IMG/VR virus record: IMGVR_UViG_3300041955_001923
Span: 1-34,925 of that record
From: a virus
Direction: 5' to 3' (one strand)
Length of the DNA stretch: 34,925 nt
Positions 21,212-34,876 of this stretch are shown one piece after another. Position 1 is the first letter of the stretch, and each line of letters starts with the position of its first letter. The translations under genes and the position numbers were made by a program. Below the pieces are notes generated by a model. The model worked only from the letters and a program-made list of their open reading frames with translations. It ran no database searches and had not been told where the DNA came from.

Positions 21212-24160
21212 ATGCCGGTAGTTCCAGGAGAGGCTTTTGTTCCAGCATTTGATGCACGACAGGAAATTCCGCAGGGTCAAGTGATCTACAACACAATCGA
21301 TAAGGCCACCCCTGAATCATTCGGCGGCCAAGTCGGGCAGACCCTTCAGCAGGCAGCGGACAAGCAAGAGCAGTCTGCCCTTGCCTACCAGCATTTAATT
21401 AACGAAACCTCCATAAACGATATTTATGCAAATCAATTTTCGCCCGCTTTTCGTGACTTATACGGTCAGTTCTATCAGCTTCGCGGGAAGGATGCTGCAG
21501 CGCAATTTCCGGCCTTTCAACAGCAAATGCTGGATTTGCGCAACCAGGTGCGCGATCAGCTTCCAAACTCGATGCAGCAAAAAATGTTCGATGCGTTATC
21601 GCAACGACGAATCAACATTGAACTTGATGGCATGCAAAGACACGCCTCAGAACAGGTAATGGCATGGAACACGGAGACCAGCAATAACATACTCGGTGCT
21701 TATGTCCAGAATGGAATTGATAAGTATAATGATCCGCAGCAACTCCAGCGAAACGAAAACAGCATTCTCGTTGAGACTGCCGCTTATGGCGCCGGAGGCC
21801 GGAATCCTGACGGCACACTAGATTATGGTCCTACCGGAGCGGGGCAATCAGCCGTAGCGATAAATATGAGGGCACAGCATTACATCGATCAGATGTACAA
21901 AGGCGCCATCGAAAGACAAATGATAACCGATCCTCAAGCTGGAATTGCGCTTTACGATCAGTACAAAAACAAGCTCTCCGGGCCTATGCAAGCTGAACTC
22001 GAAAGGGTTATCAAGCCGGTTCAGGAACTTGGACAGGCTCAGGCAGCCTATGGCAAGGTTACGGGTGGCGCAACGGCGGCAGCGATAGCGCAGGAAGCAC
22101 AGCGCCAGGGAGTTGACCCGGGTACGGCTCTGACGATCTGGAGCGCTGAGGGTGGCGTTACGAACCCACTCACGCCAAACGCCAAGGGCTCACCAGCTCT
22201 CGGGATCTTTCAGTTCATGCCGGACACGTGGGCCGGCATGGGCGGGACGGATCGGAACAGGACGGATATCAATCGTCAGATCCAGCTCGGAATAGCCCTT
22301 ACAAAGCAAAACAGCGATGCTCTCAAAGAAGACCTTGGACGGCAGCCGCAGCCATGGGAGGTCTATCTTGCTCACCAGCAGGGGATTGACGGGGCAACGG
22401 CGCTCATTCATGCAGATCCCAACGCCAACGCCGGTGATATCGTAGGAAATCCAAAAGCGATTAGCCAGAACGGCGGTACTCCGGACATGACCGTCAGCCG
22501 GTTTACCAACTACATCAAGGGTTACGTGGACAGGCATTCGATGATGTATGCGGCAAATGGTGTTCCCACCGCTCAGAATCTTACGGAGAATTACGAAACC
22601 GGTCTTCAGGCCGTGAGCGATCTTGCGCGCCAGGAACACCCGGGAGACCCACAGACCGAAGAACGATATCGAAGCCACTTTATTCAGCAGACGGGTCAGG
22701 CGCTCAATGCAGAGCGGGTGACGCAGCAGGCGAACGCCGGACTTATAAATAATGCTCTGACAGGGCCTGGACCTCTTAAATCCTGGCAGGAATTCATGTC
22801 TGATCCTGGAAGGGTGGATGCCTATAACAGTCTCTTCAAAACGGATCGCTCGATCTATGATAAGGTTGATAAGGCGATCACGACAAACGCCACGAGCGCG
22901 TGGGACCCTGCCGCTTCGGCCTCGACCGATCGACTTTACAACCAGCTTTACGGAATGTCGGTAACGGACAGGGACGGTTTCTCCAAACTCGATCTCATGC
23001 AGTATTACGGCGGGATGCCGGTATCTCAATTTAAGGACTTGAGAAATATTCAGCAAAAAATTCAGGAAAAGGACCCGGCTGAAGCGGCACGCCAAACCAA
23101 CATGAGCGCTTCTCTTACGGCCATCAGTGACGTGACGGATTTGGGCGCTGTTTCGCCGCAGTCGCCCTATTATAAGATGGATCAAGCTTCGGACCAGGTC
23201 TTTGAGCAGCAGAAATGGAACGAGTTTGTTGGAAGATTCGGGCAGGAGATCGGGGACTGGAGGCAGAACAACGGCGGCAAAATACCCTCTGTGCTGCAGG
23301 AAAGGGAGATCGCACAGCAAATCCTTTTTCCGCAAGGAACGCCGGCGCAGCACGCACAGCTTGGCGCCGAGGCCGCCTCAGGCTCCGAAATCCCAGGGCA
23401 CGGTGACACAGAGACGCTGGGACGCGGTGCCAAAACCGTCTCTCCATCTCCGAGTCCCCCCGTTTCCGCGTCAGTTTCATCCGAGGGCGCCAAGTTAACC
23501 AACCCGCCCCCAGACCATACAAATACCGGTATAAATATGAACGCAGATGCAAGTATGTTAGTATCTGACGGTAAACCCCATCAGGTCGATAGGGCGGAGC
23601 GGCAAACTGAGGGGATATCGCGCGATGCCGACGGGATGCATATTGCCGGCAGGGACGCCCCGCAGGAAGGGAATCCCTGGGGAACAGGGGCCGAAGGGAT
23701 GCCTGAGCTTTGGGACTTCCCAAAACATCCTGGGGTGACGAGAACTGATGAGGAGCCTTCAGATGCCGTTGCTTACTACACTCCGGATCGCCAGAAGTTT
23801 TTAGCTCCTCCCCAAACAGACTGGTCGGCCGTGTACGAGGCTGGTAAGGCGAATGGGCTAGACCCGATTGCAGCCTGGCGGGCACTCGGGTACTTCGGGG
23901 CGTTTGATTTTCAAAGGCAAAAAGATAAAAACCTTTTCATTAGTAAATATACGGACGCATCGAATTATGCGGTTGGCGTTTACATGAGGGGAGCAGGATT
24001 TTCTCTTGAGGAGACGAAATTTATAGCGGGACTGTTTGCGCATACAATGTCTTCAAATGCCGGCAAACCGGAACAGTCCACTTGGTGGACTAACGGCTGG
24101 AATGCGGCAGATTCAGGAGAATTCGCAAAACAGCCTGATTCGATGCAAGATATCGAATAA
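21212..24160 (+). CDS. Ejection protein with lytic transglycosylase and effector-like C-terminal domain
   Basis: 982 residues. Residues 1-285 are long helices (gp15/16-like). Residues ~295-420 are a lytic transglycosylase domain: GVDPGTALTIWSAEGG with catalytic Glu313, then LGIFQFMPDTWAGMGG. Residues ~430-725 are helical. Residues ~728-755 are encoded by an in-frame word repeat. The last ~225 residues are different in character (GYFGAFDFQRQKDKNLFIS, YTDASNYAVGVYMRGAGFS, SSNAGKPEQSTWWTNGW) and resemble C-terminal domains of polymorphic toxins, perhaps toxin-44-like; this is a by-eye comparison. The enzyme would open peptidoglycan for the DNA conduit. Partial copies of residues ~280-725 recur downstream with other C-termini. 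Confidence 0.85.
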   Translation: MPVVPGEAFVPAFDARQEIPQGQVIYNTIDKATPESFGGQVGQTLQQAADKQEQSALAYQHLINETSINDIYANQFSPAFRDLYGQFYQLRGKDAAAQFPAFQQQMLDLRNQVRDQLPNSMQQKMFDALSQRRINIELDGMQRHASEQVMAWNTETSNNILGAYVQNGIDKYNDPQQLQRNENSILVETAAYGAGGRNPDGTLDYGPTGAGQSAVAINMRAQHYIDQMYKGAIERQMITDPQAGIALYDQYKNKLSGPMQAELERVIKPVQELGQAQAAYGKVTGGATAAAIAQEAQRQGVDPGTALTIWSAEGGVTNPLTPNAKGSPALGIFQFMPDTWAGMGGTDRNRTDINRQIQLGIALTKQNSDALKEDLGRQPQPWEVYLAHQQGIDGATALIHADPNANAGDIVGNPKAISQNGGTPDMTVSRFTNYIKGYVDRHSMMYAANGVPTAQNLTENYETGLQAVSDLARQEHPGDPQTEERYRSHFIQQTGQALNAERVTQQANAGLINNALTGPGPLKSWQEFMSDPGRVDAYNSLFKTDRSIYDKVDKAITTNATSAWDPAASASTDRLYNQLYGMSVTDRDGFSKLDLMQYYGGMPVSQFKDLRNIQQKIQEKDPAEAARQTNMSASLTAISDVTDLGAVSPQSPYYKMDQASDQVFEQQKWNEFVGRFGQEIGDWRQNNGGKIPSVLQEREIAQQILFPQGTPAQHAQLGAEAASGSEIPGHGDTETLGRGAKTVSPSPSPPVSASVSSEGAKLTNPPPDHTNTGINMNADASMLVSDGKPHQVDRAERQTEGISRDADGMHIAGRDAPQEGNPWGTGAEGMPELWDFPKHPGVTRTDEEPSDAVAYYTPDRQKFLAPPQTDWSAVYEAGKANGLDPIAAWRALGYFGAFDFQRQKDKNLFISKYTDASNYAVGVYMRGAGFSLEETKFIAGLFAHTMSSNAGKPEQSTWWTNGWNAADSGEFAKQPDSMQDIE
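22656..23448 (+). repeat. 793-bp segment duplicated at 34084-34876
   Basis: The two segments align at a constant offset of 11428 bases from CCGAAGAACG at the left to TCTCCATC at the right, so there is no net insertion or deletion. They are nearly identical but carry scattered substitutions and two short clusters of change (near 22796-22800/34224-34228 and 22880-22910/34308-34338). A more diverged partial copy lies at about 30590-31880. Confidence 0.9.
23398..23478 (+). repeat. Word-repeat element inside the ejection-protein gene
   Basis: GACACAGAGACGCTGGGACG on the left and GTCTCTCCATCTCCGAGTCC, CGTTTCCGCGTCAG on the right form the same kind of inverted word pair that otherwise lies between genes (compare GACACGGAGACGCGG at 19912). 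It is in frame and adds residues GHGDTETLGRGAKTVS plus a Ser/Pro stretch at the boundary to the C-terminal domain. The second gene copy lacks it; the third has the left half. Confidence 0.7.
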
Positions 24161-24210
24161 CATAGCTATCCTACAGTAGATAGGTCTCCATAGCAGGGGT
24201 GGAGTTGAGC

Positions 24211-24648
24211 ATGAAGGGATGGCCTCGTCACTTGCAGTACGCTTGGCGTTGGGTCCGCATACCAGTGATTATAGTGATGGTGCTTTATTTAGTCCTTATC
24301 TGTATGCGAGCAGGGTATCACAGCACTTGTGCGCACGATATCCGGACGATAACCCCACAGCAGGGGAATTTTGACGCGGTAGTAGAAGAAGAATGTTGTA
24401 GCGGGTTCGGTGGCTGGTGTGAAGTGACGATTAAACTTCGCTGGAGAACCGGATGGGGTCTGGATACTAAGATATTTGCCTATGATCCAGATCTTGGACC
24501 GGGTGGGACTCATGATCCGGTCGTGGCTTGGTTGAGTGCAAATGAGTTAGAGATAGCTGTGGATAGTGTTAGTCACATTCATAGCCAACTTGGGCAAGCT
24601 CGCGGAGTCAAGATCACGTACCGCATCGGGAGTGTGAAGCACCCGTGA
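24211..24648 (+). CDS. Membrane-anchored protein, possible immunity protein
   Basis: 145 residues with one N-terminal transmembrane helix (residues ~15-35, RIPVIIVMVLYLVLICM) preceded by basic residues, so the C-terminal ~110 residues should face the periplasm. These contain a Cys-rich stretch (EEECCSGFGGWCEV) and a beta-rich WLSANELEIAV region. Start at 24211 because GGAG lies 6 bases upstream. It follows directly the ejection protein whose C-terminus looks like a toxin; a small membrane protein in that place would suit an immunity role, but no sequence motif proves it. Codon use appears less GC-rich than the virion genes. Confidence 0.6.
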   Translation: MKGWPRHLQYAWRWVRIPVIIVMVLYLVLICMRAGYHSTCAHDIRTITPQQGNFDAVVEEECCSGFGGWCEVTIKLRWRTGWGLDTKIFAYDPDLGPGGTHDPVVAWLSANELEIAVDSVSHIHSQLGQARGVKITYRIGSVKHP

Positions 24649-24681
24649 GGAGGCGGCATGAATACCTCGGGGAATCTTTAA
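24649..24681 (+). other. Strong translation start followed by only seven codons
   Basis: GGAGG at 24649-24653 stands 4 bases before ATG at 24658. The frame closes with TAA at 24679-24681 after MNTSGNL. Such a strong start for so short a frame suggests a gene cut off at this point, at the left edge of the TIGR04255 island, or a leader peptide. Confidence 0.4.
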
Positions 24682-24734
24682 TTTTCGGACTGTCCCATTT
24701 TAAGGTAGTGGCGCCTACTCATTGCATGCTCTAT

Positions 24735-24765
24735 GGTATAATAATTGCAAGACTTTTGGAGTCTT
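24735..24765 (+). promoter_or_regulatory. Sigma70-type extended -10 promoter and 5' hairpin
   Basis: TGGTATAAT (TATAAT at 24737-24742, with TG one base before it) is a consensus extended -10. No good -35 is seen at 17 bp. About seven bases downstream AAGACT (24749-24754) and AGTCTT (24760-24765) can form a hairpin at the expected 5' end of the transcript. It drives toward the TIGR04255 gene and is the clearest promoter in the window. Confidence 0.55.
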
Positions 24766-24905
24766 TATAGCATAAATATCGAATGTTTAGTGTTGCGATT
24801 TCGCCAAAGTCTGATAATCTTAATTATACAATGAACACTGCGCAATGTCCACAAGCCTCCAGGGTGGGGAAGGGAGGACGGAATAAAGAAAGGCTGGTAG
24901 TAGGT

Positions 24906-25667
24906 ATGGCAAAACGCGGACGCGCAATTCCATCGGAGCTTAAGCATGATGCGATCGTCGAAGCGCTCCTTGAGATCCGTTTCGACATGCGAAAGGAAAC
25001 CATTCCGGAGATTTTGTTTGGCCGCCTCGCTGAGCACGGGCCGTGGAAAGGATTCGAGCAAAGGCCACTGCCGGCTTATCAAGTCCCTCCGCCCCTGCGA
25101 CAAGCTGATCCGAACCTTCGCTTTCAACCTGTCTTTGAGTTGGCCGCACCTGATAAGCGGCGTACTATCCGCATTGGTCCGCATGTGTTGTCATACCATC
25201 GGCTCCGCCCGTACGTGGGTTGGGAAAAGTTCAAGCCTGAACTGGGGGAAGCAATTGACGGGTTGTTTTCGACGACTGAGGGTTTGAGCATCCGACGACT
25301 GGGGTTCCGATATATAAACGCGCTTCAAACCGATGTTCACGGCATCAGGTCGATATTGGACCTCGATCTGAAACTTTCAATAGCGGAGGAGAGTGTCTCC
25401 AGTAATGTGAACATCAACTTCACCACTGACATAAGCAACGATACTAACTGCACTGTTCGTATTGCCACGTCTGAATTCGTTCAAGGCGAGCTGCCGCCGA
25501 ACACTTCTGTCTTTGTCGATGTCGACGTTTTTACCAAAGAGGCCTTCAGAACGGAAGACCAAATCGAAGTAAAAAAATGGGTTGAGTTTGCCCACACGAA
25601 GGAGAAGGAGCAATTCTTCCGGCTTTTAACGGATCAGACTATTGACTCGCTCAAGAAGGAGGGATGA
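24906..25667 (+). CDS. TIGR04255 family protein
   Basis: 253 residues from MAKRGRAIPSELKHD, the usual length of this sporadically distributed family. Signatures: AIVEALLEIRFDM at residues ~17-29, IGPHVLSYHRLRPYVGWEKF at ~104-123, IRRLGFRYINAL at ~140-151, and KKWVEFAHTKEKEQFFRLLT near the end. No enzyme function is known for the family, which appears in mobile and accessory loci. I use the ATG at 24906 because the family begins shortly after it; the frame opens at 24783 but that extension has no family character. A promoter lies at 24735. First of three tightly packed genes. Confidence 0.78.
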   Translation: MAKRGRAIPSELKHDAIVEALLEIRFDMRKETIPEILFGRLAEHGPWKGFEQRPLPAYQVPPPLRQADPNLRFQPVFELAAPDKRRTIRIGPHVLSYHRLRPYVGWEKFKPELGEAIDGLFSTTEGLSIRRLGFRYINALQTDVHGIRSILDLDLKLSIAEESVSSNVNINFTTDISNDTNCTVRIATSEFVQGELPPNTSVFVDVDVFTKEAFRTEDQIEVKKWVEFAHTKEKEQFFRLLTDQTIDSLKKEG

Positions 25668-26243
25668 ATGCTCGCCAGCGCGACTGCAGAAGCTACAGCG
25701 TCATTTGGCATTAGAACTCGTGATGATTACTTGTCATCAGCGCATGCCGCCGAAGTGACCGGGCGTTACATCAGGAGGTTCTTTCCAGCTTCTCCACCGG
25801 TACTTTCGGACACCAAACCTGAGGACTCCATAAAGAGCCCAAGCCGTATCAAGCCCCAATGGCTCGCAACTGTTCAGGAACGCATGTACAGTTCAATCGT
25901 GCCTAAGGACAAGGAATTGGAGAATGATGGACGCTGGTTAAGGTATGGCGTGGCTGAGATAGCGTCCGCATTCTTTCAAATGACCTCAGATCTGTTGCCA
26001 AGCGAGCCACACATTTATGGGTCACAAATCGGTGATCTCGTTGCAGAGTTTGAGGATACACATGGGACTATGACGAGCATCATTACGCCCACGTCTGTCA
26101 TATTGTTTGCTGTGGTGGACGGCGTCCCTATTGAAAAAAGGTTAGTGCCCGGAAGTGATAGTCCCACCGCGTTGCGACGGGAATTACGAGAGTTGACTGA
26201 AAGCCTGCGGACGGGACAGCATGACGTGGAGACCACAAAATAA
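25668..26243 (+). CDS. Unknown protein, second gene of the TIGR04255 island
   Basis: 191 residues, starting directly at the base after the upstream stop, with AAGGAGGG as ribosome site in the upstream 3' end. Soluble, with a mixed alpha/beta look; a hydrophobic strand pair (SIITPTSVILFAVVDGVPIE) at ~138-158 and a charged C-terminal helix. No motif recognised. The exact abutment with the TIGR04255 gene and overlap with the next gene mean the three proteins are made together and probably act together. Confidence 0.65.
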   Translation: MLASATAEATASFGIRTRDDYLSSAHAAEVTGRYIRRFFPASPPVLSDTKPEDSIKSPSRIKPQWLATVQERMYSSIVPKDKELENDGRWLRYGVAEIASAFFQMTSDLLPSEPHIYGSQIGDLVAEFEDTHGTMTSIITPTSVILFAVVDGVPIEKRLVPGSDSPTALRRELRELTESLRTGQHDVETTK

Positions 26244-26694
26244 TGAGGACGTTGGGCCAAATGAACATATTGGTCGCCGCATCTTTGATGAGCCCCCGCT
26301 GGTAGGGGCGCGGGATCAGAAGCCCTTAGAGCGGCTAAGTATTCAGCATTTCGAGGATAAGGACGGGGAGGTGTCGCTCGACCGGCTAGGCCGGACGGGT
26401 ATCGACAAAGGCGTGGTAGGATACCTGCGGCGCCGAGCTGATAAAGCGGGGACTAAATTCAGGCGTACTAAGGCATTCCGTGGTTGGGCGGTACTCACCG
26501 CCCGCAAATTTGGGAGTCCCCCAGCTCCACCTGGCCATGCACTTTCCGTGATCGCTTCGCCTGTGCATGGAGACGACCTGGACGAAAATATCTACCACGC
26601 GTATGTTGTTGACCCGCGGAAAGATCGCTACATAATGGCGCTATATCTGCGCGAGTTGTTTGAAAATCACGGGACAGTGACAGAGGTAAAATAG
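26221..26694 (+). CDS. Unknown protein, third gene of the TIGR04255 island
   Basis: 157 residues, overlapping the previous gene by 23 bases. The N-terminal third is acidic and probably flexible; the central part is basic (GYLRRRADKAGTKFRRTKAF); the C-terminal part (HALSVIASPVHGDDLDENIY, HAYVVDPRKDRYIMALYLRE) looks like a compact alpha/beta domain. No known family. After its TAG the same frame continues for 24 further codons of basic character, which may be coincidence. Confidence 0.6.
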   Translation: MTWRPQNNEDVGPNEHIGRRIFDEPPLVGARDQKPLERLSIQHFEDKDGEVSLDRLGRTGIDKGVVGYLRRRADKAGTKFRRTKAFRGWAVLTARKFGSPPAPPGHALSVIASPVHGDDLDENIYHAYVVDPRKDRYIMALYLRELFENHGTVTEVK

Positions 26695-26905
26695 GCCACG
26701 CTGGTAAAGCGTAAGAACAGATTTTTGCGATTTCTTCCCGCTTGGTTTAGAAAGTGGCTTATCAAGCCGCGCGGATGATCGTCGTTGTGCTTGTTGGGGT
26801 AGTCGTGGATTTGATTCTCGGTTGTACCAGCGTAGGGGTTCCAAGCTTCCTCTTAGGCTTACTTTATTAAATCTGATACCTTGATCTGGGACATTCCCGT
26901 GCCTA
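26695..26905 (+). other. Gap with two possible tiny overlapping frames
   Basis: The 26221 frame continues past its TAG as a basic peptide (KRKNRFLRFLPAWFRKWLIK) to TGA at 26776-26778. There it overlaps, as ATGA, an ATG at 26775 that opens a 31-residue hydrophobic frame (MIVVVLVGVVVDLILGC...) ending TAA at 26868-26870. A basic stretch followed by a hydrophobic one could be a broken small membrane protein. Coding status is uncertain. Confidence 0.3.
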
Positions 26906-27526
26906 ATGCCAGAAGCGCTTCAACTCGATCTTTCAGACTTGCCCAAGCAACAGGCAGCGCCACTCACACTTGACCTTTCCGATCTGCCGAAGCAGCAAAG
27001 CGCACCACTGCAACTTGACTTGTCCGATCTTCCTAAAGCCGGCGCCGCCAGATACGTTGACGAAACGATAGCGCAGAAAGCAAAACCCGAAGATTCCTGG
27101 TTCTGGCAGAGCTTGGAATCCAGCGACACACTGAAACCTTACGCCCAGAAAGTGAGAGAATACGTTGAAAGCCCTACCGACACCAAAGGGGCCTGGGATT
27201 GGCTGACGAGCACCGTTCCGAAGTCGGCGGCTCAGTTGGGCGTCGGTTTGGCGAGGACGCCTTTTGACCTTGCCCAGACCTTTAGCGGCGAGTCTCGGGC
27301 CGCAATTGAAAAGTTTCTCCAGGAACACCCCGAATATGAGCAGATCGTTCGAGAAGACCCGACCGGTGAGAGCCTGCAAGCACTTGCCGGGATAGGCGCG
27401 GTGGAAGGAACCCTCAAGACGGCGGAAATGGCGGCCAAAGGGGCGGCGGTATTCATCGGAAAACCCCTGGGCATTGATACCGAAAACCAAACCTGGACCT
27501 GGGAGAATTTTAAAGATGCATGGTGA
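26906..27526 (+). CDS. N-terminal fragment of a polyvalent protein, three LDLSDLP repeats
   Basis: 206 residues. Three 15-residue repeats open the protein (LQLDLSDLPKQQAAP, LTLDLSDLPKQQSAP, LQLDLSDLPKAGAAR). The protein motif is kept although synonymous positions differ between copies, so the peptide itself seems to be under selection. A helical region follows, and the frame stops at TGA right where frame 1 continues with similar style (27520). This is the start of a large phage polyvalent protein of the kind encoded after ejection proteins and delivered with phage DNA. No strong ribosome site. Probably a broken gene. Confidence 0.65.
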   Translation: MPEALQLDLSDLPKQQAAPLTLDLSDLPKQQSAPLQLDLSDLPKAGAARYVDETIAQKAKPEDSWFWQSLESSDTLKPYAQKVREYVESPTDTKGAWDWLTSTVPKSAAQLGVGLARTPFDLAQTFSGESRAAIEKFLQEHPEYEQIVREDPTGESLQALAGIGAVEGTLKTAEMAAKGAAVFIGKPLGIDTENQTWTWENFKDAW

Positions 27527-27828
27527 ATCATCCGGTGGAATCATTCGCAGGAGTTTACCCGTTCGGCGCATCGTTTTTGAAGCGCAAGGGAATCACGCCT
27601 TCCGAGACTCAGATTAGAGAACTTGTGGAATCGGCGGTAAAGGATGAGAAAACACCTCTTGCGCAAGAGCTGAAAGAGGAATTGGCGAAAGGGCCTCCAC
27701 AGGAAGCTACTGTAACGCAAAACGAAAATCCACGACCAGGGGTTGTTGAATACCCTGCAAAGACATCTGCGAATATGGATAATACAAGGTGCTCAGGAAC
27801 CGGCAAGGATAGCAGGGACACCGTCTGA
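27520..27828 (+). pseudogene. Polyvalent protein remnant, middle part
   Basis: Frame 1 continues the previous fragment (VESFAGVYPFGASFLKRKGI, IRELVESAVKDEK). Near 27782 coding style passes back to frame 2 (QGAQEPARIAGTPSETDEGS) until about 27876, where TAG closes it, and from 27879 frame 3 takes over. Three frame changes within 400 bases indicate an accumulation of indels. The stretch looks like a low-complexity linker between the N-terminal part and the JAB domain. Confidence 0.55.
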
Positions 27829-27878
27829 AACAGATGAGGGCAGCAAAACATCGCTGGCCCCAAGTACTGCTCAGATAA

Positions 27879-29006
27879 TCCACGTTAGATGGCAGTGCGG
27901 TTAGTGCACGCCAAGCTGATATTCTCAGCGAACCTGAGCGATCATATCTCGAAGAATCAAAGAGGGTCAAAAAAGAACTTGAAACACAAGGCCGGGAAGA
28001 GGAACAATCAGGCTCAATTCAACCAGCATCTGCCACCGAAAGAGAAATTGGAGAGACTAGCGGATCGCAACCAGTTCCTGCTGTCGCCGGACCTTTTACG
28101 ACCATTGGAAAAGCGTTCCAGGATATCGAAAAAGAACCGGTCCATATAATCGGTCAGCCTATCAAGAGTTATGCTGATCTGGCTGAGCTTGCCCAAGGTT
28201 GGAGAAATCCAAATTATGAAGAGCTGCGTTATGTCTTTGTTAAGCGTGGAGTAATAGTTGACCACGAGGGCGTCACCTGTATGCACCCTGGATACTCCAC
28301 AGTTTATCTGGGTGACCTCGACCAATATATCGAGCACCTGCAAGACCGCATCAAGGCGCTGGGTGCTGACAGGCTCTACATGGTCCACAACCACCCGAAT
28401 GGAAATCCAACACCTTCGGACTCAGATATATGGGCCACTACAGCCATAGCCATGTCCATCCCGCAATTTAAGGGTCATATCATTATAAATTCGGGGAAAT
28501 ACGGTTATATAAACAGCACAGGATCAGACGCGACGGTCAAGCCACTCCCAAATCTTTCAAGTGCTTGGATTGACCCGATTATCCAACCTTCGGTTCCACA
28601 TGAATTGCTGGAAAGCAACGCCAGAACCATAGAGCACATCGCAAGCTGGGCTAAGGCGCTTATCAAAGATCGTGATATGCCGGTCCTCGTCTACATTGAC
28701 TCCGATAGTAAGGTGCGCGGGCTTCAGGAGGTCCACCCGCAGATTTTTACCAACATCCAGTTAATGCGCGAGAAGATGCCGCAAAAGCTTGTCGATTTCG
28801 GTTCGATAGGGGCTGTAGCCGTGCTTCCGGACAAACTTACCGAGGAAATGCTCGACGCGGTGAGAGCGTATGTTTCGGCACATGTACTTTGGGATGCCGT
28901 AGGGTTTGCTGGCAGGCTCCCATATTCATTTAGCGCAGGAGAACCCGATCTGAATTATTTTGGCGGTCGGTTGCGCGACACCATGCCTGCACAGACTGTC
29001 CGGTGA
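27879..29006 (+). pseudogene. Polyvalent protein remnant with JAB (RadC-like) domain
   Basis: Frame 3 is open from 27879 and reads a Glu-rich linker, then SYADLAELAQGWRNPNYEEL, VFVKRGVIVDHEGVTCM and VHNHPNGNPTPSDSD. This is the JAB/MPN metalloprotease domain found in phage polyvalent proteins: Glu before the GVT strand, H-x-H-P, Ser and Asp are all present, so the active site looks intact. But there is no ATG, GTG or TTG in this frame before 28281, which lies after the catalytic Glu, so no complete domain can be made without the lost upstream parts. The C-terminal 130 residues have no recognised domain. Confidence 0.7.
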
Positions 29007-29174
29007 CGGTAAAGAAAATTTTCGCTGGGTTCAGTCTGATGCAACCTTGCAGCGAGGCAGGGCAAATTACACATGCGCAGGATTTTTGCCAGATCAGGTG
29101 AAATCCCCGTTTGCCTGTAGTAAATTTGGGAGAAACGATCCCCAAATATGTACTTCATCCGGCGAGGTGCTTTT

Positions 29175-30161
29175 ATGTCGAAGAGTCGAACGAATTCCGC
29201 AAGGGTCGTGATAGAACCTGCCGGCAAAAACCCTTCGCCGGAAGAGTACGAGAAGAACATGGCTGCATATTTGGGCCTCCCTGTGGAAGAAGTGGAATAC
29301 GACCCTGATTCCCGGCTCCTGTGGTACAAAGGCAAGTTCTGCTTGGAGACCGGGCTTCTGATAGAGCCGTATCTTCTACCCCAGTCCTTGCCGGAGTCTG
29401 AGAGGCCTTCGACCAAAAAACCGGTTAAAATAATCAGACATCCGTTCAAGAACTTTGCAGATATTGCCGAACTCACCCGATCGTGGAGAAATCCAAAATG
29501 CGAGAAGTTGCGGCACCTCTATGTCAAGGACGGTGTAATAATCGACTATGAAAAGGCTGCGCGCCACGGGCTGGTGAGGGGCCTTCCCACAACCGGATAC
29601 ACCCGGGAAGAGGTAAAGCATATTAATGAGCGCATTGACGCGCTGTGCGCCGATTCTGTATTCATAATACATAATCACTATTCCGCTTATTCCTCCCCGT
29701 CAGCTATAGAAATAGAACTTGCGGCCATTTACATCCATATGGTTCCTAAACTAAAGGCGCATATCATTATAAACCCTGCATGGTTTTGTCTTATCACTTT
29801 GAAAGGCATAGCTATCCTGCGTGTGCTGGCGGACTGCCGGATTGAAGCCCCTGGCATCAATCGCGCACTCCCTCAGACGTACCGAACACAGCTTGACGCG
29901 GAGCCGAAAATCGTTGCCTGGACAAAGGTTTTGACCGAGAGGGACATTCCTGTTTTGATTGGCCTCAGAGATGAATATGGGCTTCGCACTTTGCAGAAAA
30001 TCTGCCTGCACGACATCGACAACTGGAACAAGGTTGTGGATATCATGGCACAAGACCCTGAAGACTATGAGGATGAGGACCCATTAGTTCTTAAGAAAAG
30101 GGCAGAAGCTCTCGAAGTAGCCCAGCCGTTGTTAAGACATGGGGTCTTCATTCGGTTCTAG
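29175..30161 (+). CDS. Second JAB-like domain protein, altered active site
   Basis: 328 residues from MSKSRTNSARVVIEPAG. Residues ~100-230 are a diverged copy of the JAB domain upstream: FADIAELTRSWRNPKCEKLR against YADLAELAQGWRNPNYEELR, VKDGVIIDYEKAA against VKRGVIVDHEGVT, and IIHNHYSAYSSPSAIEIE against MVHNHPNGNPTPSDSD. The HNH pair and Ser are kept, but Pro is lost and the metal-binding Asp is Glu, so activity is doubtful. CGAGGTG before the ATG at 29175 supports this start. The 168 bases before it contain no gene. Likely a stand-alone descendant of a polyvalent-protein domain. Confidence 0.68.
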   Translation: MSKSRTNSARVVIEPAGKNPSPEEYEKNMAAYLGLPVEEVEYDPDSRLLWYKGKFCLETGLLIEPYLLPQSLPESERPSTKKPVKIIRHPFKNFADIAELTRSWRNPKCEKLRHLYVKDGVIIDYEKAARHGLVRGLPTTGYTREEVKHINERIDALCADSVFIIHNHYSAYSSPSAIEIELAAIYIHMVPKLKAHIIINPAWFCLITLKGIAILRVLADCRIEAPGINRALPQTYRTQLDAEPKIVAWTKVLTERDIPVLIGLRDEYGLRTLQKICLHDIDNWNKVVDIMAQDPEDYEDEDPLVLKKRAEALEVAQPLLRHGVFIRF

Positions 30162-30582
30162 AACACGAAGTATGGTTTCGGGGGGGCGTGCTGGACGTAT
30201 ATCACAGCAATTTAAAATCGATAATGGGAGCGTGGTAGAGCGGTGTGCACGTAGCGGGGCTAAATTTTTCTCAGAAAATCCCGGACTTGAAGTGCAGGTC
30301 ATTTTTCATTACGCGCTAGATCATCAAACCCTCAAGCACTACCCTGGTACAGTAAGCGAGGCTGAAATGCACTCGCTGGAGAATCTGCGTGGCATCCCGT
30401 ACGACATTAATCCGAATGTTCACCTGCGACTGATACGGCGCGAGTGGAATCGTTTCTAGGAGCAGAATCCCAATCCGAGCAAGCAGGACTTGCTAGAAAA
30501 AGCCGCTGAAATTGATGCCAAATACGGCTCACACTTCAAACCGCCAGCAAGGAGGGAAATAATGAAATACTTTTACATTTAA
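30139..30582 (+). pseudogene. Toxin-like (HNH-type) C-terminal domain with internal TAG
   Basis: Frame 1 reads VQVIFHYALDHQTLKHYPGT, then SEAEMHSLENLRGIP, VHLRLIRREWNRF, TAG at 30457-30459, then EQNPNPSKQDLLEKAAEIDA and KYGSHFKPPAR. The pattern on both sides of the stop belongs to one domain that I know from C-termini of polymorphic toxins, where an aromatic residue (Tyr) normally stands at the TAG position and a His-His pair where this copy has Phe-His. So it appears inactivated twice. The frame overlaps the end of the JAB-like gene and has no good ribosome site. Confidence 0.6.
30549..30582 (+). other. Second strong translation start with only six codons
   Basis: AAGGAGG (30549-30555) is 6 bases before ATG at 30562, an ideal start, but the frame MKYFYI ends at TAA 30580-30582, and homology to the ejection-protein gene begins right after. 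It reads like the first codons of a gene, for instance an immunity gene following the toxin-like domain, cut off by the joined fragment. Confidence 0.4.
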
Positions 30583-30589
30583 CCGGAAA

Positions 30590-32137
30590 GTCACAGGCGG
30601 GGCAATAGCGCAGGCGATAGCCGGAGAAGCCGTGCGGCAGGGAGTTGACCCAGGTACGGCCCTTACGATTTGGAGTGCGGAAGGCAGTGTAACGAACCCA
30701 TCCACGCCAAACGCGAAGGGTTCACCAGCTCTGGGAATCTTTCAGTTCGTGCCGGACACGTGGGCAGGCATGGGCGGGACGGATCGGAACAGGACGGATA
30801 TCAATAGTCAGATCCAGCTCGGAATAGCCCTTACAAAACAAAACATCGATGCTCTCAAAAAAGATCTTGGCCGGCAGCCGCAGCCATGGAAGGTTTATCT
30901 TGCTCACCAGCAGGGGATAGACGGAGCAACGGCGCTCATTCATGCAGATCCCAACGCCAACGCTGGTGATATCGTAGGAAATCCAAAAGCGATTACGCAG
31001 AACGGCGGTACTCCGGACATGACCGTTAGCCAGTTCACGAACTACATCAAAGGTTACGTGGACAGGCATTCGATGATGTATGCGGCAAATGGTGTTCCCA
31101 CCGCTCAAAACCTTTCGGAGAATTACGAAGCCGGCCTTGAGGCCGTGACCGATCTTGCACGGCAGGAACACCCCGGAGACCCGCAGGCCGAAGAGCGATA
31201 TCGAAGCCACTTTATTCAGCAGATGGGTCAGCAGATTCACGCCGAGCAGGTGATCAACCAGGCGAACTGGAATACCGTCCGGGCGAGCCTTGCCGGTCCG
31301 ACTCCCGTCAAGTGATGGCGGGAATTCGTAAGCGATCCAGGGCGCCTCGATGCTTATAACTCCATCTATAAATCCGATCCTTCAGCCTATAACCTCGTTG
31401 ATAAGGCGATCACCACAAATGCGACGAACGCGTGGGACCCGCCCGCGACAGATCAAACCAATCAACTTTACGATAATCTCAACGGCATGCAGTACACGGA
31501 CCGAGACCGCTTCTCGAACCTCAACCTCATGCAACACTATGGCGGTATGCCGGTTGCTCAGTTGAACGGTCTGATGGACGCACAGGACAGGATTCGTAAA
31601 AATGATCCACCGGAAGCCGCGAAACACACCTCGCTCCAATCGTCTGTCAGCGCAGTGAAAGATTTGGCGGGCTTGGCCGCAGCTTCCGCCGAATCTCCTT
31701 TTTATGAAATGGACCGCACCTCGCCCTTCCCGCCCGAGCAGCAAAAGTGGAATGGATTTGTGAGCAAATTTGGACAAGCCCTGGAGGATTGGCGGCAGAA
31801 TAACGGCGATAGAATCCCGACAGATATGCAGAAGCGGGAGATTGCGCAAGGAATTCTTTTCCCGAACGGCGCGCCAGGGCAACAGCAAACGCCGCAGCAA
31901 GCAACGGCGAAACCCACGGAGGCGGCCACGCCGACAGCTACAGAAACACACAGACCGAACGGCGATCCCTTCAGCCTTTGGGTTGCGCAGCAATTAGAGG
32001 CGCATGATAAAGTCGTATCTGATGACACCATCGCCGCAACGAAAAAAGCCCTCCTCGCTAAGAATCCCAATATCGAAAAAGAATACCAGGGCATAACCCT
32101 GGTTCCCGCACAAAAGGCCGCGAACAATGCCGAATGA
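30590..32137 (+). pseudogene. Second copy of the transglycosylase ejection gene, truncated and interrupted
   Basis: From about 30590 the sequence aligns with the 21212 gene from residue ~280 on. The transglycosylase domain is retained (GTALTIWSAEGS, LGIFQFVPDTWAGMGG, Glu present). The first ~280 residues are missing. The frame is open from 30632 (GTG) except for TGA at 31313-31315, exactly where copies 1 and 3 have a serine codon in PLKSWQEF (here PVK-stop-WREF); one base change from TCA explains it. The C-terminus (QQTPQQATAKPTEAATPTAT, then IEKEYQGITLVPAQKAANNA) differs wholly from copy 1 and overlaps the next gene by 11 bases, which looks like the native end. Confidence 0.8.
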
Positions 32138-33857
32138 GATGGCGTTTGATTTTTCTTTGATTCCTGACGCACCAAAGCCGATGCAGTTCGATTTTTCCGG
32201 CATTCCTGACAAACCCAAGCCGGAAAGGACCCCCTACGCCGGTGAAGATCAAGGATCACAGCTTATTTCCTATACTCCCGATTCCTGGATAAACGATGAA
32301 ATCCCGGCCGCTCCAGCGCAACCGCTCTTTACTCCAGTGCCACGCCCACCGGAAAGACTCTACCGCGAGAATGCGCCGCAGATTTTGCAGGATACATGGA
32401 ATGCCGCTTCGCCAGAGCCGACTGTAGGTCCTCTTCGTGAACATCCCTTGCGGCCCGATGTCAGAAAGCCTTTATGGACTCTCTTCAAGGAACAAGCCCT
32501 TCCCAGCGAGCCGACCGGTATCCTCGAGAATTTGGAGGCCGGTCTTCGCCAGGCGTCCGCGCATGTGGCTGCAAATGTAATATCGCTAATCGGTTTTCCA
32601 ACGGATGAAAGCGGTGGACCCACCAGGGCGGAGCAGTACAACTCGATTTACAAGCTGATTTACAAAACTATTCTGCCGGATAACGTCGCACCTCCACAGG
32701 ATTTTCTGGACTCATTAGCTCGCGGGGTTGGAGAGGCCGCGCCGAATCTTGTTGAAACGATGCTGCTTTCCTATGCGACCGGTGGGGTTTTAAATCCGGC
32801 GTTCACCGGCATGGCTGAGAAATTCCCAACTTTTGTAGCCAAGCTATTTCCAATCGCCAGGGACGCCCTGACCTTCGGAGCACAGGGCGCACTCGAACCC
32901 GAACAGCCGGGCAGACAAGCCGCAATTGGAACGGGTGTAGGCGCGATCCTCGGAACTCTATCGCCTTACAGCAGATTAGCGCGGGTCATAGGCGGCGCTG
33001 GCATCGGGGCGGCACAGGAATATCTGACAGACCCTAACGCTACAGCTCAGGATTACGCTAGAAGCGCAACTCTTATGGGCGCTTTCGCGGGGTTGGCCGT
33101 AGCGCACGGATTGACCGTGGAAGAAACGATAGCCGGGACGCTTTTTGGTTGGGCAAAAGAAAAGGGTTACACGCCCGAGCAACTTAACAGATCGCTTCAG
33201 GTGCAGGGGATTAGGCCGGTTTTGAATGAGTTCGCGGAGGATGTGACACGGGGGTCTGCATCGGTCCAGAAACCTGGAATAGTTGTGGCTGAAAATATTC
33301 CTGCTCTGTACGACTTGGCTCTTTCCAGCAAAACGAATCAAAAAATCGAAATTAGATACAAAACGGTCGAGAGCGATGAGGCGGCGAGGCTATTCGAAGT
33401 AACTGGCAACAATCTCGAAGGTTATATCCATTCCATTGATAATTATGCCATTCGCCATATCATCAAGGAACACGGAGATCCAGTTACTGAAGCGGCAAGG
33501 GGCCAGATCCCCATCACAAAAGACGATATTTCAAAGATCCCCGAAATCGTAGATTCTCCGGACCAAGTAAGGGCTCTTAAAACCAAACAGGGCCGTGAAG
33601 GAATCGGGTATCTCAAAAGAGTAGACGGACAGGTTTTTTATGTTGAAGAGATAAGAACCGGGAAAAATCAGCTTGCAGCGGTGTCAATGCGAAAATATCA
33701 GGTCGGGGCGCCACGGGCAACTCCCGAAGGAGGCGTCGCGCAACCGTCCGAAACGTTCCCCGACTCTGACTTGGAAAATATACCACCTGAAGTCGATCTT
33801 GGCAACACTGGAGCCGAACAGACATCAAGAGGTGAATATACCACCCGAGCAAGCTGA
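32127..33857 (+). CDS. Polyvalent protein with C-terminal PBECR-like nuclease domain
   Basis: 576 residues. It opens with two 14-residue repeats (MAFDFSLIPDAPKP, MQFDFSGIPDKPKP), parallel to the LDLSDLP repeats at 26906. Residues ~130-360 are helical with several weakly hydrophobic segments (VETMLLSYATGGVL, AAIGTGVGAILGTLSP, LMGAFAGLAVAHGL). Residues ~430-528 (DNYAIRHIIKEHGD, EAARGQIPITKDDISKIPEI, GIGYLKRVDGQVFYVEEIRT) match the phage-Barnase-EndoU-ColicinE5/D-RelE-like nuclease class of polyvalent proteins, expected to cut RNA. It starts inside the end of the second transglycosylase copy (ATGCCGAATGA), as expected for a T7 gp15-gp16 type gene order. Confidence 0.7.
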   Translation: MPNEMAFDFSLIPDAPKPMQFDFSGIPDKPKPERTPYAGEDQGSQLISYTPDSWINDEIPAAPAQPLFTPVPRPPERLYRENAPQILQDTWNAASPEPTVGPLREHPLRPDVRKPLWTLFKEQALPSEPTGILENLEAGLRQASAHVAANVISLIGFPTDESGGPTRAEQYNSIYKLIYKTILPDNVAPPQDFLDSLARGVGEAAPNLVETMLLSYATGGVLNPAFTGMAEKFPTFVAKLFPIARDALTFGAQGALEPEQPGRQAAIGTGVGAILGTLSPYSRLARVIGGAGIGAAQEYLTDPNATAQDYARSATLMGAFAGLAVAHGLTVEETIAGTLFGWAKEKGYTPEQLNRSLQVQGIRPVLNEFAEDVTRGSASVQKPGIVVAENIPALYDLALSSKTNQKIEIRYKTVESDEAARLFEVTGNNLEGYIHSIDNYAIRHIIKEHGDPVTEAARGQIPITKDDISKIPEIVDSPDQVRALKTKQGREGIGYLKRVDGQVFYVEEIRTGKNQLAAVSMRKYQVGAPRATPEGGVAQPSETFPDSDLENIPPEVDLGNTGAEQTSRGEYTTRAS

Positions 33858-34149
33858 ATCTGATAATAAAATCATCGAATTCCGCAACGTCGGCCCCGAT
33901 ACTACAGAAGCAGTTTCCGACGTTTCGGATAAAATAAAAAATCTCGCCGCAACCGAAAGTTCGCGCAACCTATGGCGAAGGCTGACCGGCGCCATAACGA
34001 TTAATCCGGTCCCAAAACTTGCCCGTGTGGCAAACTGGGTTGCAGACAGGGCCGTCGAGCACGCAAGCGCCCGGATCGCCGTGCCGAAGAACGATATCGA
34101 AGCCACTTTATTCAGCAGACGGGTCAGGCGCTCAATGCAGAGCGGGTGA
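33832..34149 (+). CDS. Truncated gene fused to a duplicated segment
   Basis: GTG at 33832 with AAGAGG upstream opens VNIPPEQAESDNKIIEFRNV and continues with a helical region (RNLWRRLTGAITINPVPKLA, VANWVADRAVEHASARIAV). At 34084 the sequence switches to the copy of the ejection gene but in a different frame, giving a short meaningless tail ending at TGA 34147-34149. About 84 residues are genuine. They could be the beginning of another polyvalent or ejection protein; no family recognised. Confidence 0.5.
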   Translation: MNIPPEQAESDNKIIEFRNVGPDTTEAVSDVSDKIKNLAATESSRNLWRRLTGAITINPVPKLARVANWVADRAVEHASARIAVPKNDIEATLFSRRVRRSMQSG

Positions 34150-34876
34150 CGCAGCAGGCGAACGCCAGAGTTATAAATAATGCTCTGACGGGGCCTGGAC
34201 CTCTTAAATCCTGGCAGGAATTCATAAGCGATCCTGGAAGGGTGGATGCCTATAACAGTCTCTTCAAAACGGATCGCTCGATCTATGATAAAGTTGATAA
34301 GGCCATCACTGTAAATGGTCTTGCCGCATGGGACCCTGCCGCCTCGGCCTCGACCGATCGACTTTACAATCAGCCTTACGGAATGTCGGTAACGGACAGG
34401 GACGGTTTCTCCAAACTCGATCTCATGCAGTATTACGGCGGGATGCCGGTATCTCAATTTAAGGACTTGAGAAATATTCAGCAAAAAATTCAGGAAAAGG
34501 ATCCGGCTGAAGCGGCACGCCAAACGAACATGAGCGCTTCTCTTACAGCCATCAATGACGTGACGGATTTGGCCGCTGTTTCGCCGCAGTCGCCCTATTA
34601 TAAGATGGATCAAGCTTCGGACCGGGTCTTTGAGCAGCAGAAATGGAACGAGTTTGTTGGAAGATTCGGGCAGGAAATCGGGGACTGGAGGCAGAACAAC
34701 GGCGGCAAAACACCTTCTCTGCTGCAGGAAAGGGAAATCGCACAGCAAATCCTTTTTCCGCAGGGAGTTCCGGCGCAGGAGCCCCCAGCGTACGCCGGGG
34801 CCGCCTCAGGCTCCGAAATCCCAGGGCACGGTGACACAGAGACGCTGGGACGCGGTGCCAAAACCGTCTCTCCATC
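34084..34876 (+). repeat. Third, near-identical copy of an ejection-gene segment
   Basis: Direct repeat of 22656-23448 (offset 11428, no net indel). The left junction lies at CCGAAGAACGATATCGAAGC, which is common to both contexts; the right junction is just after TCTCCATC inside the word-repeat element. Confidence 0.9.

Follow-up and report, generated by a model that had tools for sequence, protein, structure and literature searches.

What do a gene of the TIGR04255 family and the two unannotated genes behind it do in the late region of a phage genome? The window analyzed here spans all 34,925 bases of an IMG/VR virus record and belongs to an epsilon15-like podovirus, with a head-tail connector (PF12236), a GP7-type capsid protein (PF20911), and internal virion proteins. 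All genes of the window lie on the same strand. An earlier note, made from the DNA sequence, had described the three genes as an island with its own promoter and had suggested a defense or superinfection-exclusion cargo. We examined the island within its phage, among related phages, and across the genomes in which TIGR04255 occurs.

The three genes of the island

Gene 1 (P0001; 24906–25667, plus strand) encodes a TIGR04255 protein of 253 amino acids, the constant component of the module described below. The match to the NCBIfam model (TIGR04255/sporadTIGR04255) covers model positions 2–251 of 252 with an E-value of 1.1e-31 and a score of 110.6 bits, where the cut-off is 30, which makes the protein a clear member of the curated family; PHROG 5464 is also its family. 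Translation probably starts at the ATG at 24906 rather than at the listed ORF start at 24783, because residue 53 of the listed ORF is the first that the family model matches. Gene 2 (25668–26243, plus strand, 191 amino acids) begins directly after the TIGR04255 stop codon with a gap of 0 nt, and gene 3 (P0003; 26221–26694, plus strand, 157 amino acids) overlaps gene 2 by 23 nt. The earlier reading of an intact TIGR04255 gene followed by two abutting or overlapping unannotated genes is thus correct. Genes 2 and 3 have no match in Pfam, NCBIfam, PHROG, or PADLOC, and none of the three genes matches a PADLOC 2.0.0 family or system. In IMG/VR, we found no close relatives of any of the three and no second viral contig that carries the island.

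For gene 1, AlphaFold gave a good model (pLDDT 86). Residues Y136, D205, and H230 of the protein are conserved. Read by the order of its elements, the model appears to be a duplicated beta-alpha-beta-beta-beta-alpha fold with two similar halves and no clear relative. All fold matches are weak: RepDE initiator (E-value of 1e-4 with a TM score of 0.3), TBP, AdoMetDC, and phosphagen kinases, the last with a Z score near 8 at an rmsd of roughly 4 or higher. We took no function for gene 1 from any of them. The sequence search for solved structures gave nothing useful. For gene 3, no known toxin fold was detected by Pfam, NCBIfam, or PADLOC, and its structure model is poor (pLDDT 35).

A variable block bracketed by ejection-gene repeats

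The earlier note placed the island between ejection-protein and polyvalent-protein genes. It does lie there, but as part of a larger block of 6.4 kb (24161–30586, plus strand) that has no match in 20 kin regions; by alignment, 24199–30161 is without any match in them. On the left, the block is bounded by a complete ejection/transglycosylase protein gene (21212–24160, plus strand; PHROG transglycosylase, 5.7e-20) and on the right by a partial second copy of that gene (30587–31884, plus strand), which repeats 22055–23352 at 76% DNA identity. A further partial copy lies at 34084–34876 with 94% DNA identity. Since the island is inside this repeat-bracketed block, it is no isolated insertion. The extra copies comprise the SLT and C-terminal part of the ejection gene, and one of them is followed by a polyvalent gene; they may be orphan cassettes of the C-terminal part or else reflect an assembly fork. 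A near-identical contig (L088) ends at the ejection-gene repeat, so an assembly fork at that point has to be kept in mind.

In the best-matching kin (L089 and L344), the polyvalent gene, whose window counterpart starts at 32127, follows the ejection gene directly. TIGR04255 is absent from all 46 kin records, many of which are fragments. The island therefore shows the absence from otherwise syntenic relatives that is expected of a moron. Short, chance-level direct repeats are all that flank the island edges. The earlier note saw the left edge cut off a gene start; at 24659, an RBS-like stretch is followed by ATG-AAT-ACC-TCG-GGG-AAT-CTT-TAA. The gene flanking this edge has no relative among the kin or in IMG/VR, hence there is no empty site for comparison.

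Two other genes of this region deserve mention. The polyvalent-type protein encoded at 32127–33857 contains a PBECR3 nuclease domain (phage Barnase-EndoU-Colicin-RelE-like) and is 42% identical to the product of the kin gene found right after the ejection gene. Within the block, 28281–29006 encodes a 241-amino acid protein with a short RadC/JAB-like stretch at residues 27–71.

Upstream signals and base composition

The claim that the island has its own promoter rests on an extended −10 promoter-like box, TGGTATAAT, at 24734–24742 (plus strand). This putative element is the sole exact TGNTATAAT in the window, but the chance expectation is 0.44 per window, and at least one exact copy occurs in 36 of 100 shuffles. 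No −35 hexamer was found for the box, and it is absent from the sigma-70 matches of the window. A promoter at this position is plausible. At the expected 5′ end of the transcript, a small 7-bp hairpin (AAGACT/AGTCTT; 24749–24765, plus strand) folds with −5 to −7 kcal/mol, a stability that only 2–3% of mononucleotide shuffles equal. The hairpin noted earlier thus stands out from 97–98% of shuffles, whereas the whole 178-nt leader folds no better than chance (z = +1.6), and we rejected a structured leader RNA. We found no Rfam match in the leader and no plus-strand terminator flanking the island. Given the weak promoter evidence and the single direction of all window genes, late co-transcription is possible. 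On the minus strand, an 11-of-12 sigma-70 match (24851–24823) lies within the leader of the TIGR04255 gene, with nothing obvious to transcribe.

The GC content of the island (0.511) is indeed lower than that of the genes at 1–24160 (0.56), as the earlier note had observed. It is no mark of the island, however, because the region to its right (26906–30586) has a value of 0.505 and 11% of island-sized windows are as low; we rejected low GC as a sign of foreign origin.

TIGR04255 heads a modular three-gene operon

To place the island in context, we analyzed the neighborhoods of 116 distinct TIGR04255 loci in windows of ±6 kb. We use the term module for a TIGR04255 gene with two same-strand genes behind it, a middle one and a third one, that abut or overlap; the window has this arrangement, with gaps of 0 and −23 nt. 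By tblastn, TIGR04255 is present in Pseudomonas phages Dobby and VW-6S, in Sulfurimonas phage SNW-1, and on plasmids of Phocaeicola and Thermus, in each case with two genes directly downstream. Its position in the other phages is an accessory one, adjoining the repressor or at the genome end. A genome scan yielded 15 TIGR04255 loci, and the family occurs patchily in 106 of 1015 sampled genomes from five phyla, a sample that includes a few chosen centre genomes. The homologous modules are mostly bacterial.

Across these phyla, the operon is conserved as a constant TIGR04255 gene, a middle gene, and a variable third gene. Among the third genes, about eight families can be told apart (PIN, HEPN, DUF7689, and several unnamed), and 86 of the 116 loci have a third gene from one of them. 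The other 30 loci have no classified third gene, and some loci (L310, L247, and L323) have no obvious partner pair. When HMMs built from the third genes were searched in the ±6 kb windows, they matched almost exclusively the third position of the TIGR04255 operon (PIN 6, HEPN 12–13, SNSC 25, Y3 30, Z3 9, X3 6, and N3 2 matches). All 6 PIN, 25 SNSC, and 14 HEPN matches (one HEPN copy counted twice) lie on the same strand just downstream of TIGR04255. Genes of the SNSC family are also found without a nearby TIGR04255 gene, several of them broken, and Y3 genes are linked to TIGR04255 at five of seven places.

The Pfam domains among the third genes are PIN (PF01850), HEPN (PF05168), and DUF7689. 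PIN enzymes are RNases used as toxins, and the acidic residues are conserved in the PIN third proteins. The HEPN third proteins carry a motif of the R-x-x-x-DY type instead of the classical R-x4-6-H; because the classical histidine is missing, this set may be non-catalytic. Some middle proteins, including those of the Z type, contain helix-turn-helix domains by Pfam, and the middle proteins of the PIN types have antitoxin-like C-terminal tails. Middle and third families co-vary without exception wherever both were modeled (X2/X3 at 6 loci, Z2/Z3 at 8, and Y2/Y3 at 26). Profile comparison among the middle families revealed no kinship apart from that of Y2 with the middle protein of the window.

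Two further observations concern individual loci and genomes. At four loci (L250, L252, L242, and L245), helix-turn-helix middle proteins are paired with a long SNSC-type third protein, an arrangement that suggests autoregulation. In one genome (G052; L280 and other contigs), TIGR04255 occurs six times over five contigs, with differing third genes (HEPN, DUF7689, and Y3); one of these contigs holds two of the copies at a distance of about 7 kb.

Partner pairs are exchanged as cassettes

The earlier note had made conservation of the two partners with TIGR04255 a point on which its proposal should be checked. The three-gene architecture is kept, whereas different partner pairs take turns in it. 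A tree built from 114 TIGR04255 proteins places that of the window with those of L092, L093, and L094 (support 100). Its closest relative, from L092, is 68–69% identical, yet is followed by an unrelated SNSC pair. The L093 protein is 51% identical and is followed by the pair of the window in the same order: the middle gene (L093:6757-7329) is 38% identical to gene 2, and the third gene (L093:7304-7918) is about 50% identical to gene 3. A second such case is that of L270 and L318, whose TIGR04255 proteins are 56% identical and whose third genes encode DUF7689 and PIN proteins, respectively. On the whole tree, the third-gene labels require 39 changes against 70.8 in shuffles; the partner pairs are clustered but have been exchanged repeatedly. 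The middle and third genes are thus swapped as a cassette between close TIGR04255 relatives.

The family of the third gene of the window was seen in one other genome only (L093). As a lone query against the genome contigs, gene 3 found nothing, and its profile, searched in 369 and 299 further genomes, recovered only the source genome in the first set and nothing in the second. Gene 2 belongs distantly to the 'NWDG' (Y2) family of middle genes, by way of its L093 homologue: the Y2 HMM matches the L093 middle gene at 1.3e-10, gene 2 itself is below the HMM threshold, and profile-profile comparison with Y2 gives an E-value of 1.2e-5. Gene 3 has no match to the Y3 HMM, and its best profile-profile match is the Y3 third-gene family at a weak E-value of 0.012 (probability 3.5%), so that it may be a remote Y3 relative.

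As read from the sequence, the L093 operon adjoins genes for a phage-type major capsid protein and an integrase-like protein, and the nearest matching cassette is therefore also on a mobile element. The surrounding region (L093:1791-7918) is an integrated element of a proteobacterial MAG, with integrase-like and replication-like genes and a lone HK97-type capsid gene beside the TIGR04255 operon; it looks like a capsid-encoding satellite.

Modules are linked to defense operons

The neighborhoods were also checked for defense islands, as proposed earlier. The commonest neighbor families are a type III-like methyltransferase with helicase, a DUF1156 methyltransferase, a DUF499 ATPase, and an SNF2-type helicase, and 16 of 114 loci adjoin DUF499, DUF1156, SNF2-type helicase, or type III-like mod/res genes, which in several loci are only a few bases from the module. 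In a matched comparison on long contigs, 5 of 20 loci had defense neighbors, as against none of 20 controls taken from distant regions of the same contigs (p = 0.024, a small sample); loci and controls were also scanned with PADLOC. At three loci (L318, L299, and L317), the module lies amid or beside genes of the DUF499/DUF1156/helicase type, and the third genes are PIN or SNSC. Linkage of TIGR04255 modules to restriction and BREX-related defense operons is recurrent. The window itself, searched with representatives, has no DUF499, DUF1156, or helicase gene. Because such modules are found inside bacterial anti-virus gene clusters, that of the window may shield its host from competing phages.

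Comparison with known systems

DUF499/DUF1156/helicase loci belong to the BREX-related (Hma) defense systems, which, like BREX, are reported to have HEPN and PIN RNases as auxiliary or backup effectors (PMC12839542). TIGR04255 modules whose third gene is PIN, DUF7689, or SNSC resemble these auxiliaries in sitting in such DUF499-centered loci. The passages of that source on the HEPN and PIN nucleases present them mostly as standalone or fused domains and make no mention of TIGR04255, whereas here the proposed effector gene belongs to a three-gene module. Prophage defense by a HEPN protein is exemplified by Tha (PMC11087260); unlike Tha, the putative effector of the window is not a HEPN protein. 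A compact operon of three overlapping genes, the last of them toxin-like in certain relatives, also recalls tripartite type II toxin-antitoxin systems such as HipBST (PMC9325769). No sequence relation was found, however, and here an effector pair is exchanged as a cassette behind one constant gene. Other three-component toxin-antitoxin systems exist as well. As an accessory gene set in the late region that its kin lack, the island resembles phage morons and lysogenic conversion genes.

TIGR04255 is a name without a function, and the name and description as shown omit the three-gene modular context. The literature searched, which excludes most subscription papers, holds no mention of TIGR04255.

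Interpretation of the island

We consider it fairly probable that the three genes form a mobile TIGR04255 module, which the phage carries as a toxin- or effector-type defense cargo. The defense-type cargo suggested earlier is backed by the conserved architecture, the accessory positions in other phages, and the linkage to defense operons. In such a module, the third protein, P0003 in the window, would be the effector, and the middle protein its specific partner; gene 2 is accordingly proposed to be an adapter or antitoxin. TIGR04255 would be the constant component that links the middle-effector pair to a trigger or holds it inactive; TIGR04255 and the middle protein together would hold the effector silent, sense infection, or both. 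A trigger would free the effector, which would then stop either the cell, by abortive infection, or the phage that is entering it. The phage would carry the module as lysogenic-conversion cargo in the variable block behind its ejection gene.

The same genes might instead form an addiction module that stabilizes the prophage or replicon and has no anti-phage role, with gene 3 as toxin, gene 2 as antitoxin, and TIGR04255 as an extra regulator or chaperone. The tight gene overlaps, the PIN and HEPN third genes seen in some relatives, the antitoxin-like tails and helix-turn-helix domains of certain middle proteins, and the presence of modules on plasmids and phages would all suit such a role. We nevertheless regard it as unlikely: the association with restriction and BREX-related operons, within which some modules lie, points to a response to infection, and the module has three constant gene positions, not two. 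The location of the island could also speak for three proteins of the ejection/polyvalent region that are injected or act late in the lytic cycle, for example in counter-defense, as the genes are on the late strand in a block bracketed by ejection-gene copies. Such a function is rather improbable for genes whose homologous modules are mostly bacterial and in part inside defense operons, that no kin phage carries, and that elsewhere adjoin a repressor or a genome end.

An assembly join at the ejection-gene repeat, or decaying or inert passenger genes, would be in keeping with the three partly repeated ejection-gene segments, the near-identical contig that ends there, and the finding of the island on no other viral contig. 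However, the stretch from the complete ejection ORF to the island is continuous and free of repeats (23448–30587), all three frames are intact, and a matching operon exists in another phage-like element (L093), which together leave this explanation very little likelihood.

Beyond the window, we tentatively propose, at somewhat less than even confidence, that TIGR04255, with its duplicated beta-rich fold, is the universal hub of a new class of mobile immune modules with interchangeable adapter-effector pairs, common to phages, plasmids, and restriction or BREX-related operons. TIGR04255, which about 10% of the sampled bacterial genomes carry, becomes a testable system of a constant protein and exchangeable middle-effector pairs with known settings in defense operons, for which the window and L092, and L270 and L318, are natural swap pairs for comparison. 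If the proposal is true, the SNSC, Y3, and DUF7689 families would gain a likely effector role, and the modules would represent both a novel type of phage cargo and a widespread plug-in effector layer in the immunity of prokaryotes.
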